DNA of 64,000 bases from Sanyastnella coralliicola (GTDB lineage: Bacteria; Bacteroidota; Bacteroidia; Flavobacteriales_D; Sanyastnellaceae). The stretch covers positions 2,063,501 to 2,127,500 of the forward strand of contig NZ_CP132543.1 of the NCBI RefSeq assembly GCF_030845195.1, given 5' to 3'. Positions within the stretch are counted from its first letter, which is position 1. Each line of letters starts with the position of its first letter. Of the stretch, positions 34,170 through 41,247 are shown piece after piece. The position numbers were made by a program, and so were the translations under genes. Under the pieces are notes generated by a model, which searched no databases, had not been told where the DNA came from, and saw only the letters and a program-made list of their open reading frames with translations.

Positions 34170-35567
34170 ATGACACCTATAACCTTAGATGACCTTCGAA
34201 AATTCAAGGAATTTGACGAGGTGCCTGACGATCAGTTGAACTGGCTTATTGAAGTTGGGGAAGTGATCGAACTCGAACCCAATGAATTTATCTTCCGACG
34301 CGGTCAGGCCTCAGATCATATGACGCTGATTCTTTCTGGAAAAATTGACGTCTACGGGTATCCCAACGAAAGTAAAAAGTACTTCGGCAGTTTTGAAGAA
34401 AACTCGATTACCGGTCTTCTTCCATATAGCCGCCTAACTCATGCCAACGGAGATGGAATGGCTGTTAAGCCTACCCGTGTCTTTTCAGTCCATCGAGACC
34501 AGCTCCAAGCAATGATTCAAAACCACTATGAGCTGACTGCATCCCTTGTTCACCACATGACTTCTCGGGTGCGGGAGTTTTCTCAATCGCGTATGCAGAA
34601 TGAAAAACTGATGGCATTGGGTAAAATCAGTGCTGGTTTAGCGCATGAATTGAACAACCCGGCCTCAGCCATAGTGCGAAGTTCGCAAGCGTTGAAATCA
34701 CACTTGAAGCAAGTTCCTGAAGGATTCAAGCAGGTGATGGAAATTGACGTCACTCCTGAAATTACCGATGAAGTGAGCAAACTGCTTTTCACTAAGGTGG
34801 AAGCAAAGCCGGAAGAACGATTGAGTCTACGCGACCGAAATCGCTTAGAAGATGAAATCGCAGATTGGCTTGAAGACCATGGTGTTGAAGATGGATTCGA
34901 AAGCGCCGAGAACTTCGTGGAATACAGATTCACCGTTGACGATTTTGAAGAGGTTGCAGAAGTAGTGAAAGACAAAGACTTACCTGCAGTCATCAATTGG
35001 ATGAACCAGAATCTTACTACTGATCGTATGGTTGATGAAATTGAGCAAGCCTCTGAACGTATTGCTGGCATTATCAAATCGGTGAAATCCTATTCATACA
35101 TGGACCGTGACCAAGACCTTCAGCCTGTGGATGTCAGTGAAGGAATTGAAAGCACTGTTACCATGCTGAATCACAAGATCAAGAAAGGTGGACACGAAAT
35201 CGAAATTGACCTTGGGGATAACGTACCAAAGGTCAAAGGACTGCCGGGTGAATTGAATCAGGTTTGGACCAACATCATTGATAATGCGATTGATGCCATG
35301 AAGGACAAGCCAGGTCGGGTGCGTATCGTATCCTTCCAAACAGAAGGTATGCTGAGCATCTGTATCGAAGACAATGGACCTGGAATTCCAGAGGATGTAA
35401 AAACACGCATCTTTGAACCATTCTTCACCACAAAAGCCATGGGTGAAGGAACCGGGCTAGGTCTTGATGTGGTGATGAAGATCATCAAAAAGCACGGCGG
35501 TGAGATCGTTGTAAACAGCCAGCCTGGGCGAACTAGATTTGAAGTTAGACTCCCAATCATGAACTAA
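34170..35567 (+). CDS. Soluble histidine kinase with N-terminal cyclic-nucleotide-binding domain
   Basis: Cytosolic kinase of 465 residues with no transmembrane helix. Residues about 15-125 are a CRP-like cNMP-binding domain (EPNEFIFRRGQASDHMTLIL, then SGKIDVYG). The phospho-acceptor is His159 in GKISAGLAHELNNPASAIV, of the NtrB-like HisKA kind, and the HATPase domain has NQVWTNIIDNAIDAM, EDNGPGIP and GEGTGLGLDVV. A helical insert (about 200-285) separates HisKA from HATPase. Its stop shares one base with the next start (TAATG), so the receiver-oxidoreductase fusion is its likely partner. Whether it binds a cyclic nucleotide cannot be judged: the phosphate-binding arginine motif is not obvious. 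Confidence 0.92.
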   Translation: MTPITLDDLRKFKEFDEVPDDQLNWLIEVGEVIELEPNEFIFRRGQASDHMTLILSGKIDVYGYPNESKKYFGSFEENSITGLLPYSRLTHANGDGMAVKPTRVFSVHRDQLQAMIQNHYELTASLVHHMTSRVREFSQSRMQNEKLMALGKISAGLAHELNNPASAIVRSSQALKSHLKQVPEGFKQVMEIDVTPEITDEVSKLLFTKVEAKPEERLSLRDRNRLEDEIADWLEDHGVEDGFESAENFVEYRFTVDDFEEVAEVVKDKDLPAVINWMNQNLTTDRMVDEIEQASERIAGIIKSVKSYSYMDRDQDLQPVDVSEGIESTVTMLNHKIKKGGHEIEIDLGDNVPKVKGLPGELNQVWTNIIDNAIDAMKDKPGRVRIVSFQTEGMLSICIEDNGPGIPEDVKTRIFEPFFTTKAMGEGTGLGLDVVMKIIKKHGGEIVVNSQPGRTRFEVRLPIMN

Positions 35568-37219
35568 TGGAGAAGCCAATCATTTTCGCGATCGATGACG
35601 ACCCGCAGGTACTTCGTGCGGTGGTTCGTGATCTTCGCTCTCGATATAGAAAAGAATACCGCATCATTAGCACAGATTCTGCCAATGAAGCGCTGGAGGA
35701 ATTGGTCGACCTCAAAAACAAGGGGGAGGAAGTTGCCCTCTTCTTGAGTGACCAGAAGATGCCTGAAATGCTCGGTGTTGAGTTCCTCGAAAAAGCCAGA
35801 GAGATTTTCCCAAAATCACGTCGCGTGCTTTTGACGGCATATAGCGATACTGACGCTGCGATTAAAGCCATCAACGATGTTCAACTGGATTACTACTTGC
35901 TTAAGCCTTGGGATCCACCCGAAGAAAGACTCTATCCGGTAATCGATGACCTACTCGGAGACTGGCTTTCACAGTATCGTCCTAACTTCAAAGGACTTCG
36001 TGTGATTGGGTATCAGTTCTCGCCTCTCTCCCACCAAATCAAAGACTTCCTTTCAGCGAATCTATTCCCTTATGAATGGATTGATTACGAAGCCAATGAA
36101 AAGGCCACTGAGTTCATGGAGGCGAATAAACTCACTGCCAAGGATCTTCCAATTGTAGTTAAAGAAGAGGGTGAAGTACTGGTTGCTCCAGACTTAAACG
36201 CTATCGCGGAAAGTCTTGGTTTGCACCCTAATCCGGATTCTGACACTTACGATGTCGCGATCATTGGTGCTGGTCCTGCAGGATTAGCCGCGGCAGTCTA
36301 TGGTGGTTCGGAAGGACTGAAAACCGTGCTTATTGAAAAGAAGGCTCCGGGCGGACAAGCAGGAACCTCATCACGTATTGAGAATTATCTAGGATTCCCT
36401 TCAGGCCTCAGCGGAAAAGACCTTGCGCGTCGTGCGATTACGCAGGCAACGCGTTTTGGAATTGAGTTCTTGAGTCCACAAGAGGTTTCTGAAATTGAAA
36501 TCAAAGACCAATACAAGATTCTGCATCTGAAGAGTGGAGTTTCCATCAATGCACGCTCAGTCGTGATCACTACAGGTGTAAACTACAGAGAGCTTCAAGC
36601 CCCAGGTATCAGCGACTTTACAGGAGCTGGAATCTACTACGGTGCTGCTACCACAGAAGCTGCTAATTGCAAGAATGGTGATGTTTACATTGTCGGTGGA
36701 GGTAACTCAGCCGGACAAGGTGCGATGTACTTGAGTCAGTTTGCACGGAAGGTGCACATTTTGATTCGTAAGGATGACCTTTCTAGTTCGATGTCTCAGT
36801 ATTTGATCGACCAGATTGACGGTACTCCGAACATCGAAGTGATGGGACGAACACAGATTGTTTCCGCGCACGGTGATGGAAGACTTCAAGAATTGGTCAT
36901 CAATCACGATGGCAACGAAGAGAAACGTGAAGCTCGCGCCTTATTCATTTTTATCGGGGCCAAGCCATACACAGAATGGGTTCCTTCGATGGTGAGTCGC
37001 GACCAAAGAGGATTTGTAAAGACAGGTAGAGACCTCAATGTCACCGAACCTTCTCAGGCTTGGAGCATTGAGCGAGATCCTTACCTTTTGGAGACGAATG
37101 TTCCGGGTGTGTTTGCTGCAGGTGATGTTCGTTCAGGGGCAATGAACCGCGTAGCATCAGCAGTTGGCGAAGGTACAATGGCCATTTCATTCGTCCATAA
37201 ATACCTAGGAGAATCATGA
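35567..37219 (+). CDS. Response-regulator receiver fused to TrxR-like flavoprotein
   Basis: Fusion of 550 residues. Receiver domain at 1-130 with phospho-acceptor Asp62 (FLSDQKMP), Thr90 and Lys113 (LLKPWD). Residues about 143-215 resemble a thioredoxin/glutaredoxin-like domain, but the active-site position reads SPLS instead of CxxC. A thioredoxin-reductase-like flavoprotein fills 228-550: FAD loop IIGAGPAG (232-239), GGQAG (262-266), NAD(P)H loop GGGNSAG (377-383), and the closing FAAGDVRSG. The CxxC of true thioredoxin reductases is missing; only Cys368 is near that place. It is therefore not a normal disulfide reductase. Overlaps with both neighbours (TAATG and ATGA) show tight coupling. 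Confidence 0.93.
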   Translation: MEKPIIFAIDDDPQVLRAVVRDLRSRYRKEYRIISTDSANEALEELVDLKNKGEEVALFLSDQKMPEMLGVEFLEKAREIFPKSRRVLLTAYSDTDAAIKAINDVQLDYYLLKPWDPPEERLYPVIDDLLGDWLSQYRPNFKGLRVIGYQFSPLSHQIKDFLSANLFPYEWIDYEANEKATEFMEANKLTAKDLPIVVKEEGEVLVAPDLNAIAESLGLHPNPDSDTYDVAIIGAGPAGLAAAVYGGSEGLKTVLIEKKAPGGQAGTSSRIENYLGFPSGLSGKDLARRAITQATRFGIEFLSPQEVSEIEIKDQYKILHLKSGVSINARSVVITTGVNYRELQAPGISDFTGAGIYYGAATTEAANCKNGDVYIVGGGNSAGQGAMYLSQFARKVHILIRKDDLSSSMSQYLIDQIDGTPNIEVMGRTQIVSAHGDGRLQELVINHDGNEEKREARALFIFIGAKPYTEWVPSMVSRDQRGFVKTGRDLNVTEPSQAWSIERDPYLLETNVPGVFAAGDVRSGAMNRVASAVGEGTMAISFVHKYLGES

Positions 37220-38151
37220 TCGTATATAAGAGTAACAAGAACTGGTTTGGAGATATCCGTCATCTAGCGAAAAGCTGGACGATGGTGAAAGTAGGAAGAG
37301 CCAGTCTGATGGTTGCCGCCTACACGTTGGCAGTAGCAGCTTTTCACATTGAAATTATTCCGGAGGCTTCGATGTCTTCAGCAGCTTCGGTGTTTACCTT
37401 TCTCGGGGTTGTCTTGAGTATCCTTTTGGTATTCCGTACCAATACGGCTTATGATCGCTGGTGGGAAGGACGTAAACAATGGGGTGCATTGGTGAATAAT
37501 TGCCGTAACATGGCCCTATACGCTCACAACATGTTGCCTGCGGAAGATCTGGAAACTCGACGCTACCTCGCGAAACATATTTCCAATTTCTGTTTCGCCT
37601 TCGTTGAGCACCTTCGTGATGGAACTAAGTTGGAGAACCTCATCGAACTTTCGGAAGATGAAATCCTGCACTACAAGCATTATGATCACATTCCGAATCG
37701 CATCGCCTCTCAGATTTGGAGAGTCTTGCAGGAGAAATACCGCGCAGGAGAGATTACAGACATGGATGTGCTGAATATTCGTCCAACACACCAGTCGTTA
37801 CTTGACATCCTTGGTGCTTGTGAACGTATCAAGAAGACCCCTATCCCTTTCTCTTATGCGATCTTCATGAAGATTTTCATCACGGCCTACGCACTACTTC
37901 TTCCATTCGCTTTGGTGAAAGACATGGAATACTGGAGCGTGCTTGCAGTGACTTTCGTCTTCTTCGCTTTCATCGGAATTGAAATGATGGGAGAAGAAAT
38001 TGAAGACCCGTTCGGACTAGACTGCAATGACCTTCCAACCGGCACCATTGCATCTGCCATCAGTGGGAATGTATATGAGATCTTGGGCCTCACTGAACGA
38101 AGCGAACAGGCCATCAAGAAGGAACAAGAACTTTACGAGAAGATTTTCTAA
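37216..38151 (+). CDS. Bestrophin-family anion channel protein
   Basis: Membrane protein of 311 residues of the bestrophin (UPF0187) family, which form oligomeric anion or ion channels in the inner membrane. Signatures: two N-terminal helices, the VFRTNTAYDRWWEGRKQWG block following helix 2, two more helices at about 210-260, and the conserved tail EIEDPFGLDCNDLPT. Its ATGA overlaps the stop of the receiver-oxidoreductase fusion, placing it in one operon with a sensor kinase. That context suggests that channel activity, membrane potential or ion content is linked to the kinase signal; this is inference. A hairpin with a T-run follows (38183-38211). Confidence 0.9.
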   Translation: MIVYKSNKNWFGDIRHLAKSWTMVKVGRASLMVAAYTLAVAAFHIEIIPEASMSSAASVFTFLGVVLSILLVFRTNTAYDRWWEGRKQWGALVNNCRNMALYAHNMLPAEDLETRRYLAKHISNFCFAFVEHLRDGTKLENLIELSEDEILHYKHYDHIPNRIASQIWRVLQEKYRAGEITDMDVLNIRPTHQSLLDILGACERIKKTPIPFSYAIFMKIFITAYALLLPFALVKDMEYWSVLAVTFVFFAFIGIEMMGEEIEDPFGLDCNDLPTGTIASAISGNVYEILGLTERSEQAIKKEQELYEKIF

Positions 38152-38394: not shown

Positions 38395-39051
38395 TCAATC
38401 GATAAGATCATGTTCCATCGCATAACGCACTAATCCCGCTACATTACGCACCCCTAATTTTGTTAGGATGTTCTTGCGGTGTGATTTGATGGTACTCACC
38501 TGAACATCAAGAGAGTTCGCGATTTCTTCTGTTGTTTTTTCCTCGCAGATCAACTGAATCACCTCCAACTCACGGTTCGAAATTTCGATGACCTGTGTCG
38601 GTGCTTGCCCCTCCCCTCTGAATCCAATAAGATTCTGAGCCACTTTACCGCTGAGGTAGAAATCACCTGCCATGATGGTCTCGATGGCCTTTTTGAAGTC
38701 AGTCTTCCCAGTGTTCTTGAGCAAGTAACCGTTAGCTCCTTCATCCATCGCTGTACGTATGTAGGTAGGCTCTTCATGCATGGTAAGCATCAAGGTCTTT
38801 ACATCGGGTTTGCTCTGTTTCACCGCGCGAAGAATATCAAACCCATCGGGTTCGTTCCTGCGCTCTTCATTTCCCATACGGATGTCTAAGATCAACACAT
38901 CAAACGAAGTATTCTCAACGCTCTCTAAGGCTGAGTCTACGGTATTCGCGGATCCGGCGATTTCAATTTCTTTATCGCTTTCGAACATGGCTGAGATACC
39001 ATCAATGATCATTGAATGATCATCAACGATGAATAGTCTAGTTTTCGGCAT
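38395..39051 (-). CDS. NarL/FixJ-family response regulator
   Basis: DNA-binding response regulator of 218 residues. The receiver has FIVDDHSMIIDGI, phospho-acceptor Asp in VLILDIRMG (Asp57), and Lys in GYLLKNTGK. The LuxR-type HTH (about 153-215) shows ISNRELEVIQLICEEKTTEEIA and STIKSHRKNILTKLGVRN. The start lies 14 bases inside the upstream kinase gene, so the pair is translated together. It is the last gene of a three-gene minus-strand operon (small protein, kinase, regulator). Confidence 0.95.
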   Translation of the reverse strand: MPKTRLFIVDDHSMIIDGISAMFESDKEIEIAGSANTVDSALESVENTSFDVLILDIRMGNEERRNEPDGFDILRAVKQSKPDVKTLMLTMHEEPTYIRTAMDEGANGYLLKNTGKTDFKKAIETIMAGDFYLSGKVAQNLIGFRGEGQAPTQVIEISNRELEVIQLICEEKTTEEIANSLDVQVSTIKSHRKNILTKLGVRNVAGLVRYAMEHDLID

Positions 39052-40903
39052 GGACAGGGATGTTTTCAGTTATTGGAATTCGAATGTTACTCTGGGTTCC
39101 TTTGCCTGGTTCTGAAACCATGTTAAAGCTTCCAGATAGCGCATTCACTCGTCCTTGAATATTCTTTAGCCCAACCCCTGAAAGGTTGGCATTCGTTTCG
39201 TTTGACAGTCCGATACCATCGTCTTTGACCTGTAGAAGGATCTCTTTGGACTGCTTTTGCACCTTGATCTTTAGCTTACTAGCGAATGAGTGCTTAATCG
39301 CATTCGAAATCAGTTCTTGTGCAATGCGGTAGAGATTGACTTCTTGCATGGCGCTGAGCCTTCCGTCCATTCCGATGGATGTGAAGGACACTTCAAGATC
39401 AGTGGTGGTATCAATACGCTCAGCCAACTCCTTGATTGCTGGTATCAATCCGAATTTTGAAAGCGTACCACTTACTAGATTGTGAGAGATTTTACGTACT
39501 TCACTAGCAGCTTCATCTAAGATCTCAGAAACATTATCGATCTGTTCATTTTGACCATCCTTAGCAGCACTGACTTGCATTCGAGCTGTTGCAAGCAATG
39601 ACCCGATGTTATCATGCAAATCTTGACCAATACGTTTACGCTCTGTTTCTTGTCCTTCGAGCATCGCGTTCACAGCTACTAGTTCTTGTTGACGCATTAG
39701 TTCACTCATTTGGCGTTCCTGAGCAAGCGTCTTCGTTCGTTGTTTGTTACGGTAAACTAAGAAGATAACAACGCCTGCTAGGAGTAAAACGAGCAAAATC
39801 AGCAACACTCCCACCGCCATTTGAGTTTCCCTTTCGCTTTCAAGTAATTGGCGATTCGTTTCTGCTACGTCATATTTCGCTTGAATTTCTTCGATCTCAA
39901 CATTAGCGTTGATTGTCTGCTCAGCAAGATTCAATTCACTAAGACGACGGAAATAATCTAGTGCTTGCTCGTACAGACCTAAGTCTTCACTTAGGTTCGC
40001 CAGATTCTTGAGTACGATTTTCTGAGAGGTTAGATCCTTCAAATTCTGTAGCAACGAGTCACTTGACTGTAGCATTTCCAATGCAGATTCTGAGCCTGAT
40101 AATTCCCCGTAGGCCTTTCCTGTTAAGCTAGCAATCACTCCCATTTGACCTTGCTCATCTAACTCCATCACAATCTCTTTTGCTGTTTCAAGCATCAACA
40201 ACATCTTGAGATATTCGTCTTTTTGATGGAAGGCTAGACTACTGAGGATATATGTATTAGCTAGCTCTGAAGTGTCATTAGCTAAACGGAATTCGTCTGC
40301 AGCTAGGCTGGAATATTTGAGCGTAGAGTCAGAATTGAAAAGCACTTTGTGACGGATCGCCTCGGCCAAGTAAATGTGTCCTCTAAAACCAGGATATCTG
40401 AACCCATCAATTCCGTTGATGATTGCTTTGAATTCTGCTTCTTGATCTGCTGCAATTCTCTCTCCATCAGAGAAGCTCACTGAAGAATAAACTTCCTGGG
40501 CTCGACCGACTTGATTGAATGCCATGACTGCGCGAAGCATCTGATTCACTTCGACAAGGTCTTGTTCAGGAATTTCGTCTGCCTTTTCGTTCACCAATTT
40601 TTGCGCTTCTTCCACGGCTGAAATACTCTCAAGAGTGGAACCAGTATAGCGGTGAACCTTCGCAATCATAGATGTTGCAAAGACAAATTTGAATGGATCA
40701 AAAGGGTTGAGTGCTCGTTTTCTCGCTTCTAGCGCATACATGTAACTGCTGTCAGCATCGTTACTCAACATGCGTTTTGCCAAGATCAATTGGCAATCAA
40801 AATCGCATTCTTGATTTGAAACAAGGTGTTCCTGACCAGACACTTGTATTGATAGAAGTGCGGTCAGGAACAATAAAATCAGATGTGTCTTCGCAGACCT
40901 CAT
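39038..40903 (-). CDS. NarX/DegS-type sensor kinase with TPR-like sensor region
   Basis: Kinase of 621 residues. ATG 40903 is preferred since MRSAKTHLILLFLTALLSIQ opens a signal peptide and the codon overlaps the previous stop (TAATG). The exported region (about 25-370) is helical with TPR-like repeats (YEQALDYFRRLSELN). A transmembrane helix (VGVLLILLVLLLAGVVIFLV) precedes a HisKA_3 domain with ERKRIGQDLHDNIGSLLATA and a HATPase domain with NLYRIAQELISNAIKHS, KDDGIGL and GVGLKNIQGRV. This TPR plus HisKA_3 build is common in Bacteroidota with NarL-type partners, here the next gene. The sensed signal is unknown. Confidence 0.93.
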   Translation of the reverse strand: MRSAKTHLILLFLTALLSIQVSGQEHLVSNQECDFDCQLILAKRMLSNDADSSYMYALEARKRALNPFDPFKFVFATSMIAKVHRYTGSTLESISAVEEAQKLVNEKADEIPEQDLVEVNQMLRAVMAFNQVGRAQEVYSSVSFSDGERIAADQEAEFKAIINGIDGFRYPGFRGHIYLAEAIRHKVLFNSDSTLKYSSLAADEFRLANDTSELANTYILSSLAFHQKDEYLKMLLMLETAKEIVMELDEQGQMGVIASLTGKAYGELSGSESALEMLQSSDSLLQNLKDLTSQKIVLKNLANLSEDLGLYEQALDYFRRLSELNLAEQTINANVEIEEIQAKYDVAETNRQLLESERETQMAVGVLLILLVLLLAGVVIFLVYRNKQRTKTLAQERQMSELMRQQELVAVNAMLEGQETERKRIGQDLHDNIGSLLATARMQVSAAKDGQNEQIDNVSEILDEAASEVRKISHNLVSGTLSKFGLIPAIKELAERIDTTTDLEVSFTSIGMDGRLSAMQEVNLYRIAQELISNAIKHSFASKLKIKVQKQSKEILLQVKDDGIGLSNETNANLSGVGLKNIQGRVNALSGSFNMVSEPGKGTQSNIRIPITENIPVHAEN

Positions 40904-41247
40904 TAGAGACGAATCTTTTCGTCTTTCTTGTCTTTTTCTTCTGTTGTCACTCCACCGCCACCAGACTCGGCACCAATGGTCATTACGCTTAGCCAAACAT
41001 CGCTGGTGTTATCGGCGATTACCGTTTTTCCCGGAATGATTTCATCCGCTTGGAAAGTGTGCATAGCAGCCCCACCGGTTGTTTCAGCAAAATGCGCTAC
41101 AAAGACGTGAACGTCTTTACCATTGTTGTCTTTATGTGTTTTTAAATATCCTGCTTTTGCAAGCTTCAGGTTCCCTCCATCACAATCGACTAGGATTTTG
41201 AGAGGTCCGCCATTCGTAGCGGAAAAAGTAATATCATATGCGGCCAT
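40903..41247 (-). CDS. Small unknown protein heading a two-component operon
   Basis: A 114-residue protein that I do not recognise. ATG 41247 (MAAYDITFSATNGGPLKILV) is preferred over an in-frame upstream codon at 41301, which would add a low-complexity stretch. There is no signal peptide; the pattern looks like a compact beta-sandwich (KILVDCDGGNLKL, VHVFVAHFAET, TVIADNTSDVWLSV) with a charged tail (EEKDKKDEKIRL). Its stop overlaps the kinase start by one base, so it is produced with the kinase and regulator and may modulate them. This is inference from position only. Confidence 0.65.
   Translation of the reverse strand: MAAYDITFSATNGGPLKILVDCDGGNLKLAKAGYLKTHKDNNGKDVHVFVAHFAETTGGAAMHTFQADEIIPGKTVIADNTSDVWLSVMTIGAESGGGGVTTEEKDKKDEKIRL

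Follow-up and report, generated by a model that had tools for sequence, protein, structure and literature searches.

The window analysed here is a 64,000-nucleotide stretch of the Sanyastnella coralliicola genome (NZ_CP132543.1, positions 2,063,501 to 2,127,500 of the forward strand; coordinates below count from its first letter). It carries three consecutive genes, all on the + strand, that encode a soluble histidine kinase, a fusion of receiver (REC), glutaredoxin-like and thioredoxin reductase (TrxR)-like domains that we call RT, and a bestrophin that we call BE. That the three proteins work together as a functional unit is well supported. We give an even chance to the more specific reading that the trio is a signal-to-ion-flux unit, in which the output of a two-component system is an NAD(P)H-linked flavoprotein of non-disulfide type, and this flavoprotein controls how active a cation transporter is, much as KefF acts on KefC. 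Conservation of this gene set in many Bacteroidota suggests control of ion flow by a phosphorylation signal that passes through a flavin protein.

The three-gene set recurs in one bestrophin clade

The kinase gene (34170..35567, 465 amino acids (aa)) was assigned from its open reading frame (ORF) and Pfam matches, RT (35567..37219, 550 aa) from ORF, Pfam and TrxR fold, and BE (37216..38151, 311 aa) from its match to PF25539 (5e-74) and to bestrophin structures (4e-34). The kinase stop and RT start codons share one base within TAATG (35565..35569) and the RT stop and BE start codons share four bases as ATGA (37216..37219), exactly as an earlier note on this DNA had read the junctions.

A scan of 84,980 species with BE returned 309 relatives, and the best 80 were kept as the basis of all clade counts. 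These split into a clade of 48 loci with at least 49% identity and an outer group of 32 loci with at most 45%. RT and kinase genes were found in the BE locus in 26/48 clade loci as compared to 0/32 outer loci (Fisher 5e-8, kinship ignored); one of the 26 (L142) comes from G012, a near-identical sister of the window. The gene order recurred in Flammeovirga, Telluribacter, Rhabdobacter, Arundinibacter, Shiella, Fulvivirga, Chryseolinea, Chryseosolibacter, Chryseotalea and several metagenome-assembled genomes (MAGs). A thin phylum sample had first been read as showing a BE trio unique to this genus, and the scan of named genomes overturned that reading. The earlier note had let its proposal depend on the three genes co-occurring beyond this genome, and this they do, within one bestrophin clade and in none of the 32 kept loci outside it.

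The arrangement of the linked loci was largely constant. In 24 of the 26, RT precedes BE on the same strand at a distance of no more than 472 bp, and a UBP zinc-finger gene sits between the two in five of these 24. The RT-BE junction is an overlap or a gap of at most 12 bp in 11/26. BE precedes the kinase in L175, and in L149 RT and BE are separated by an EgtB-like gene (FGE-sulfatase plus DinB_2). At this last locus (L149:4787-7888) the ORF after BE resembles by eye a histidine methyltransferase (EgtD), hinting at ergothioneine.

Phylogeny placed all 27 linked rows (window included) inside one 48-row clade of the BE tree with a support of 92, and 47 rows of that clade at 96*. The linkage label required 9 changes on this tree compared to a shuffled mean of about 23 (0/500 shuffles as low), and the BE label required 11 changes on the RT tree compared to a shuffled mean of 24, counts that cannot tell gain from loss. 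L186, a broken bestrophin, was left out of the BE tree and of the neck counts below, and L113 and L253 were left out of the RT tree. On both trees the window groups with Flammeovirga and the MAGs L153 and L160 (supports 93 and 90). BE, RT and kinase distances were correlated (r 0.69-0.82, 0/2000 permutations as high) over 19 of the 27 rows, eight near copies or truncated loci having been omitted.

The 22 unlinked clade BE loci sit in 21 genomes, 18 of which carry a REC-type RT elsewhere; one more has only a 45% relative covering residues 157-549. Among genomes with an outer bestrophin only, RT was found in 10/27; these ten include Shiella, which has a linked BE (L171) as well. For this search for RT elsewhere, 50/54 loci were submitted. 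Two same-clade bestrophins stand head to tail in each of the RT-unlinked loci L170, L176, L177 and L179.

RT has the TrxR fold and lacks the redox-active cysteines

RT matched Response_reg (2e-13) and Pyr_redox_2 (1e-36). Its receiver domain (35582..35920, PF00072) has the phospho-acceptor Asp, acidic pocket, Thr and Lys expected of a two-component receiver, and D10, D11, D12, D62, T90 and K113 were kept in at least 95% of 101 aligned RT rows. Asp62 (35750..35752) is the putative phospho-acceptor by alignment and family. The TrxR-like FAD/NAD(P)H domain (36248..37207, PF07992) has TrxR-type FAD and NAD(P)H motifs that were likewise kept in at least 95% of rows. The alignment includes L113 and L253, which are second copies of L142 and L171, and therefore holds 99 distinct rows; L277, whose RT has an in-frame stop in that assembly, was omitted from alignment, tree and association counts. 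A further RT copy with one in-frame TGA in its assembly was seen in L231 (G474 contig 613).

The predicted structure of residues 226-550 has the TrxR fold (Z up to 33.0). The model fits several TrxRs at 2.5-2.8 A, one of them in the FR form (5mh4), and its fit to the FO form (5mjk) is 6.2 A; pLDDT was below 50 at residues 260-282 and no conclusion on conformation was therefore drawn. Against TIGR01292, RT scored 232.5 with a cut-off of 343.45.

No CxxC was found in any of the 101 aligned rows. The corresponding TrxR site reads YYGAATTEA in RT (36635..36661), with Gly359 in 101/101 and Thr363 in 97/101 rows. In the middle domain (35993..36223) SPLS likewise stands in place of CxxC, and its Ser152 was present in 98/101 rows, the remaining three having D, A and A, so that an active-site cysteine is missing here also. 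The only cysteine of RT is Cys368 (36668..36670). This position was Cys in 27/27 BE-linked, 4/20 antiporter-linked and 41/54 other RT rows, and Phe in 16/20 antiporter-linked rows, and Cys368 is therefore not a family-wide redox centre. No cysteine column was conserved across the family, the best reaching 72/101 rows. The window genome also encodes a separate, CAVC-bearing TrxR elsewhere. The absence of CxxC from the family and the presence of this second enzyme ruled out RT as an ordinary thioredoxin reductase, and on sequence grounds any ordinary disulfide reductase is excluded by the missing CxxC. This leaves for RT either NAD(P)H-dependent flavin chemistry or a role purely as a binding switch.

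The earlier note had described most of this correctly. Asp62 and both nucleotide loops (GAGPAG and GGGNSAG) are intact in the window RT, the reductase domain has Cys368 and no CxxC, a loss that extends to the whole family, and RT is by sequence not the ordinary disulfide reductase that would have undone the proposal. Its "Trx-like" label for the middle domain held for the SPLS at the CxxC place; the domain itself is closest to glutaredoxin (profile match to 2lqo, 2.4e-7).

The window RT protein, a query that reaches close relatives only, had no match in viral contigs, and the GC content of the trio (0.44-0.47 per kb) was like that of its surroundings (0.42-0.46); a mobile or viral origin of RT was rejected on these two counts.

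The kinase-RT pair is shared with Kef-type antiporters and a UBP zinc finger

In the phylum sample, 53/395 genomes encode an RT-family protein (E of 1e-60 or lower). We examined 48 full-length RT loci, 47 from this sample and G012, with an operon defined as same-strand genes no more than 500 bp apart. The kinase was in the RT operon in 44/48 loci and within the fetched stretch in 46/48. A Kef-type (CPA2) antiporter was in the RT operon in 20/48 loci, 16 of them from one family and the other four from three families, and a UBP zinc finger is often in the operon too. All three antiporter copies scanned carry TrkA_N; a UBP zinc finger is attached to one of them and a glutaredoxin domain to a second. 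In L067 (2719-5094) the Kef-type antiporter of the RT-kinase operon has its glutaredoxin domain at the C-terminus. In L062 an SBF-type transporter separates RT from the kinase, and a DsbA-like gene was a recurrent RT neighbour (cluster 4, 12 loci; two copies checked by Pfam). No CPA2 match was found in the 80 BE loci or in the 26 RT loci of the unlinked genomes.

The UBP zinc finger scored over its cut-off in 36/395 genomes, and 33 of the 36 were among the 53 RT-family genomes (Fisher 9e-31, kinship ignored). The trio of the earlier note omits this common partner. The UBP gene of the window genome, its sole UBP-family match, is located away from the operon. There it shares 4 bases with an MFS transporter gene (L122:8627-10179, C1 ~266.1-267.7 kb), so that UBP is again next to a transporter. 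The third genome of the genus has no RT, UBP or PF25539 bestrophin.

Related proteins were also found in Myxococcota, where 37/146 genomes matched and 30 loci were fetched. In 12/30 a 51-55% RT lies beside a kinase that matches that of the window only from residue 133 or 143 on, and one such kinase checked by Pfam lacks the cyclic nucleotide-binding (cNMP) domain. Two of the 30 have a 41-42% REC-containing RT with no kinase match in their short flanks. In the remaining 16 (L292-L307, one checked by Pfam) a cNMP-like stretch is fused to a CxxC-less TrxR-like part, with a UBP match nearby in 7/16. These fusions are a kinase-free version. cNMP fusions occur in Bacteroidota too (L080 by Pfam, L081 and L083 by alignment), as do stand-alone forms. 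Together with the kinase-borne domain of the window, the fusions indicate that a CRP-like input recurs in two layouts, fused directly or acting via kinase and receiver.

The kinase carries a remodelled CRP-like domain

The kinase matched cNMP_binding (4e-10) and HATPase_c (4e-26), with HisKA under its cut-off, in agreement with the soluble kinase with a CRP-like domain of the earlier note. The H-box His and the N and G boxes of a two-component kinase are all present; H159, N363, N368, D401, G403, G405, G427, G429 and G431 were kept at 100% (rounded) in 94 aligned rows. His159 (34644..34646), in the H-box HELNNP, is the putative phospho-acceptor by alignment and family, and the predicted fold matched histidine kinases, best KinB (Z 23.5).

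The N-terminal domain (34269..34526) scored 39.9 bits against PF00027 (cut-off 27.5) and gave profile matches to PKG, PKA and CRP domains. In the profile alignment, our only basis for this point, the canonical phosphate-binding Glu and Arg are replaced, and G-x-LP-x-SR stands in place of the usual phosphate-binding cassette of the CRP/PKA type. G82, L84, P85, S87 and R88 of this motif were kept in 97-98% of the 94 rows, and the ligand is likely to be other than cAMP or cGMP. This domain and the glutaredoxin-like domain of RT were both assigned by profile search because the fold-search lists were filled by kinase and TrxR domains.

A second two-component pair lies convergent beside the operon (38395-40996, - strand) and consists of a LuxR-type regulator and a HisKA_3 kinase with a TPR-like part; the pair is also present in G012 (L113).

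BE is predicted to be a cation-leaning channel

BE matched only Bestrophin_2 (PF25539), with 249.9 bits and a cut-off of 27. A search with PF01062 gave no match even in controls and is uninformative on absence, PF25539 being the matching family. The window genome encodes two further PF25539 proteins elsewhere. The predicted pore neck of BE, V65, I69 and F73 (37408..37434), aligns with I62, I66 and F70 of KpBest, an equivalence that assumes a two-residue PDB-chain numbering offset under which all three positions fit. In the 27 linked bestrophins the neck was I (18) or V (9), then I (26) or V (1), then F (27). The unlinked clade members were similar, and the 32 outer bestrophins had mostly F, L and F. 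In the available text of PMC8496536, KpBest is a Na+ channel whose neck reads IIF and in which the I66F change favours Cl-. The V/I-I-F neck of BE resembles that of the Na+-conducting KpBest and not the eukaryotic chloride motif, and from these residues BE is predicted to be a cation-leaning channel.

Proposed mechanism and alternatives

We propose that the cytosolic kinase senses an internal signal through its remodelled CRP-like domain and would then phosphorylate Asp62 of RT. RT, by its sequence unable to reduce disulfides by the TrxR mechanism, would bind FAD and NAD(P)H and act as a cofactor-bound switch, its redox or conformational state being set by the receiver. The target may be the membrane monovalent-cation transporter encoded next to it, on which RT would act directly; this would be a KpBest-like bestrophin in the window and a Kef-type (CPA2) antiporter in other lineages, with cation selectivity presumed for both. 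The UBP zinc-finger protein, encoded elsewhere in the window genome, would be a further frequent component. Gene order, conservation, CxxC loss, the change of transporter between lineages and co-occurrence are all demonstrated at the level of sequence. The part of RT as a phosphorylation-controlled flavoprotein partner is suggested by analogy with KefF on KefC, and direct gating of the transporter by RT, over a co-regulated enzyme, is our best guess. The route from phosphorylation through a flavoprotein to ion flux had been put forward in the earlier note and is partly supported overall, gaining from the occurrence, in other lineages, of the same kinase-RT pair in operons that hold Kef-type antiporters. 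A broader version, in which a phosphorelay working via a TrxR fold that reads the NAD(P)H/FAD state directly gates unrelated cation transporters (bestrophin or Kef-type) as a general device, with UBP as a common part and the Myxococcota cNMP-TrxR fusions as the one-protein version, is tentative and we would sooner expect it to fail.

Several observations weigh against the proposed unit. Twenty-two of the 48 clade loci have no RT in the locus; some loci end at contig ends (e.g. L152, L154, L156, L177, L186, L191, L199, L205 and L208), which makes unlinked status less certain there. Two of the 21 genomes with an unlinked clade BE, both Saprospira grandis, had no RT match at E 1e-100. The gene order is not found in most RT-bearing genomes, and in the 53 phylum-sample RT genomes no clade BE stands beside RT except in that of the window; a bestrophin of about 31% identity lies near RT in L107 (81 bp away, opposite strand) and L108 (within 5 kb). 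The correlated distances are predicted by co-inheritance, and shared species history would give the same. The antiporter loci may reflect few independent events since 16 of the 20 are in one family, and 20/53 RT-family genomes have no UBP over the cut-off. The V/I-I-F neck is not specific to RT linkage, being common to unlinked clade members, and the outer group is also without the middle Phe.

An alternative is a co-regulated stress response without gating. Here RT, under the control of phosphorylation, would use NAD(P)H to reduce a small molecule (a quinone, an electrophile or oxygen), and the ionic or pH consequences would be corrected by the channel or antiporter on its own. BE is often unlinked, the nucleotide motifs of RT are kept, an EgtB-like gene separates RT and BE in L149, and KefF itself has quinone reductase activity in the available text of PMC10224563. 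This explanation alone leaves the recurrence of one bestrophin clade, and elsewhere of a TrkA_N antiporter, unaccounted for, and we regard it as possible and somewhat doubtful. RT might also pass electrons in trans to a cysteine that controls the transporter, either Cys368, those of the zinc finger or those of a DsbA- or glutaredoxin-like partner. The invariant Cys368 of BE-linked RTs, the recurrent DsbA-like neighbour and the one antiporter with a C-terminal glutaredoxin domain are consistent with such thiol chemistry; Phe at this position in most antiporter-linked RTs and the lack of a family-wide cysteine column make it improbable.

Finally, BE could be a genomic passenger beside an unrelated kinase-RT pair. 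Most examined RT operons are without BE, and full-length RT was found in only 2/61 genomes of the family sample of the window, the window genome and G012. Bestrophins of any kind were also weakly associated with RT (18/53 RT genomes vs 60/342 others), which weighs against the unit as well. The split of 26/48 vs 0/32, the RT encoded elsewhere in 18/21 unlinked genomes and the correlated divergence argue against a passenger, which we consider very improbable. The signal-to-ion-flux unit is the reading that we prefer.

Two-component systems, bestrophins, TrxR-fold proteins and flavoprotein-controlled Kef are all already known, and their combination appears new. A literature search, from which most subscription journals were outside coverage, gave no report of a kinase/RT/bestrophin, RT/Kef or RT/UBP link among the matches listed. 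To our knowledge the cellular role of bacterial bestrophins is largely unsettled, and a conserved kinase-flavoprotein-channel operon gives one of them a testable regulator. The annotation given to receiver-TrxR fusions tends to be thioredoxin reductase; the operon predicts a non-disulfide role for this commonly misnamed family and ties it to Kef-type antiporters and bacterial UBP zinc fingers.

Comparison with known systems

RT shares its fold and both dinucleotide motifs with the low-molecular-weight thioredoxin reductases and AhpF, the latter of which also has N-terminal Trx-fold domains. RT differs from these in lacking CxxC and in having a receiver domain in front. The TrxR-like ferredoxin/flavodoxin-NADP+ reductases FNR1 and FNR2 are, as far as we know, without CxxC like RT and have no receiver domain; RT matches their TrxR fold (Z ~26), with a structural score lower than for the TrxRs.

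BE belongs to the same family as KpBest and other bacterial bestrophins and has a neck similar to that of KpBest; it is encoded in an operon with a two-component pair. A bestrophin channel is also joined to a sensory module in the rhodopsin-bestrophin fusion PDB 7pl9, which we take to be the protein named bestrhodopsin. There a rhodopsin is fused to the channel, whereas the window encodes a phosphorelay and a separate flavoprotein.

The YcgO system combines a phosphotransferase system (PTS) phosphorelay with a CPA1 antiporter, and we know of no flavoprotein in it. It is similar in that a phosphorelay protein acts on a cation antiporter: according to the available text of PMC11808508, a protein of the PtsP-PtsO-PtsN phosphorelay interacts with and inhibits the K+/H+ antiporter YcgO.

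KefF with KefC (and KefG with KefB) is the closest precedent for the proposed function. It differs in that KefF is small and of the FMN quinone-reductase type, whereas RT is a TrxR-fold protein with a receiver and a kinase, and in that the membrane partner in the window is a bestrophin, the window operon having no CPA2 antiporter. In the available text of PMC10224563, KefF is an FMN quinone reductase that is required for full activation of KefC and whose gene overlaps that of the transporter. In both cases a soluble flavoprotein gene overlaps the gene of a membrane protein, in the Kef case the cation transporter that KefF activates, and for many relatives of RT the operon includes a TrkA_N-bearing antiporter of the Kef type (CPA2).

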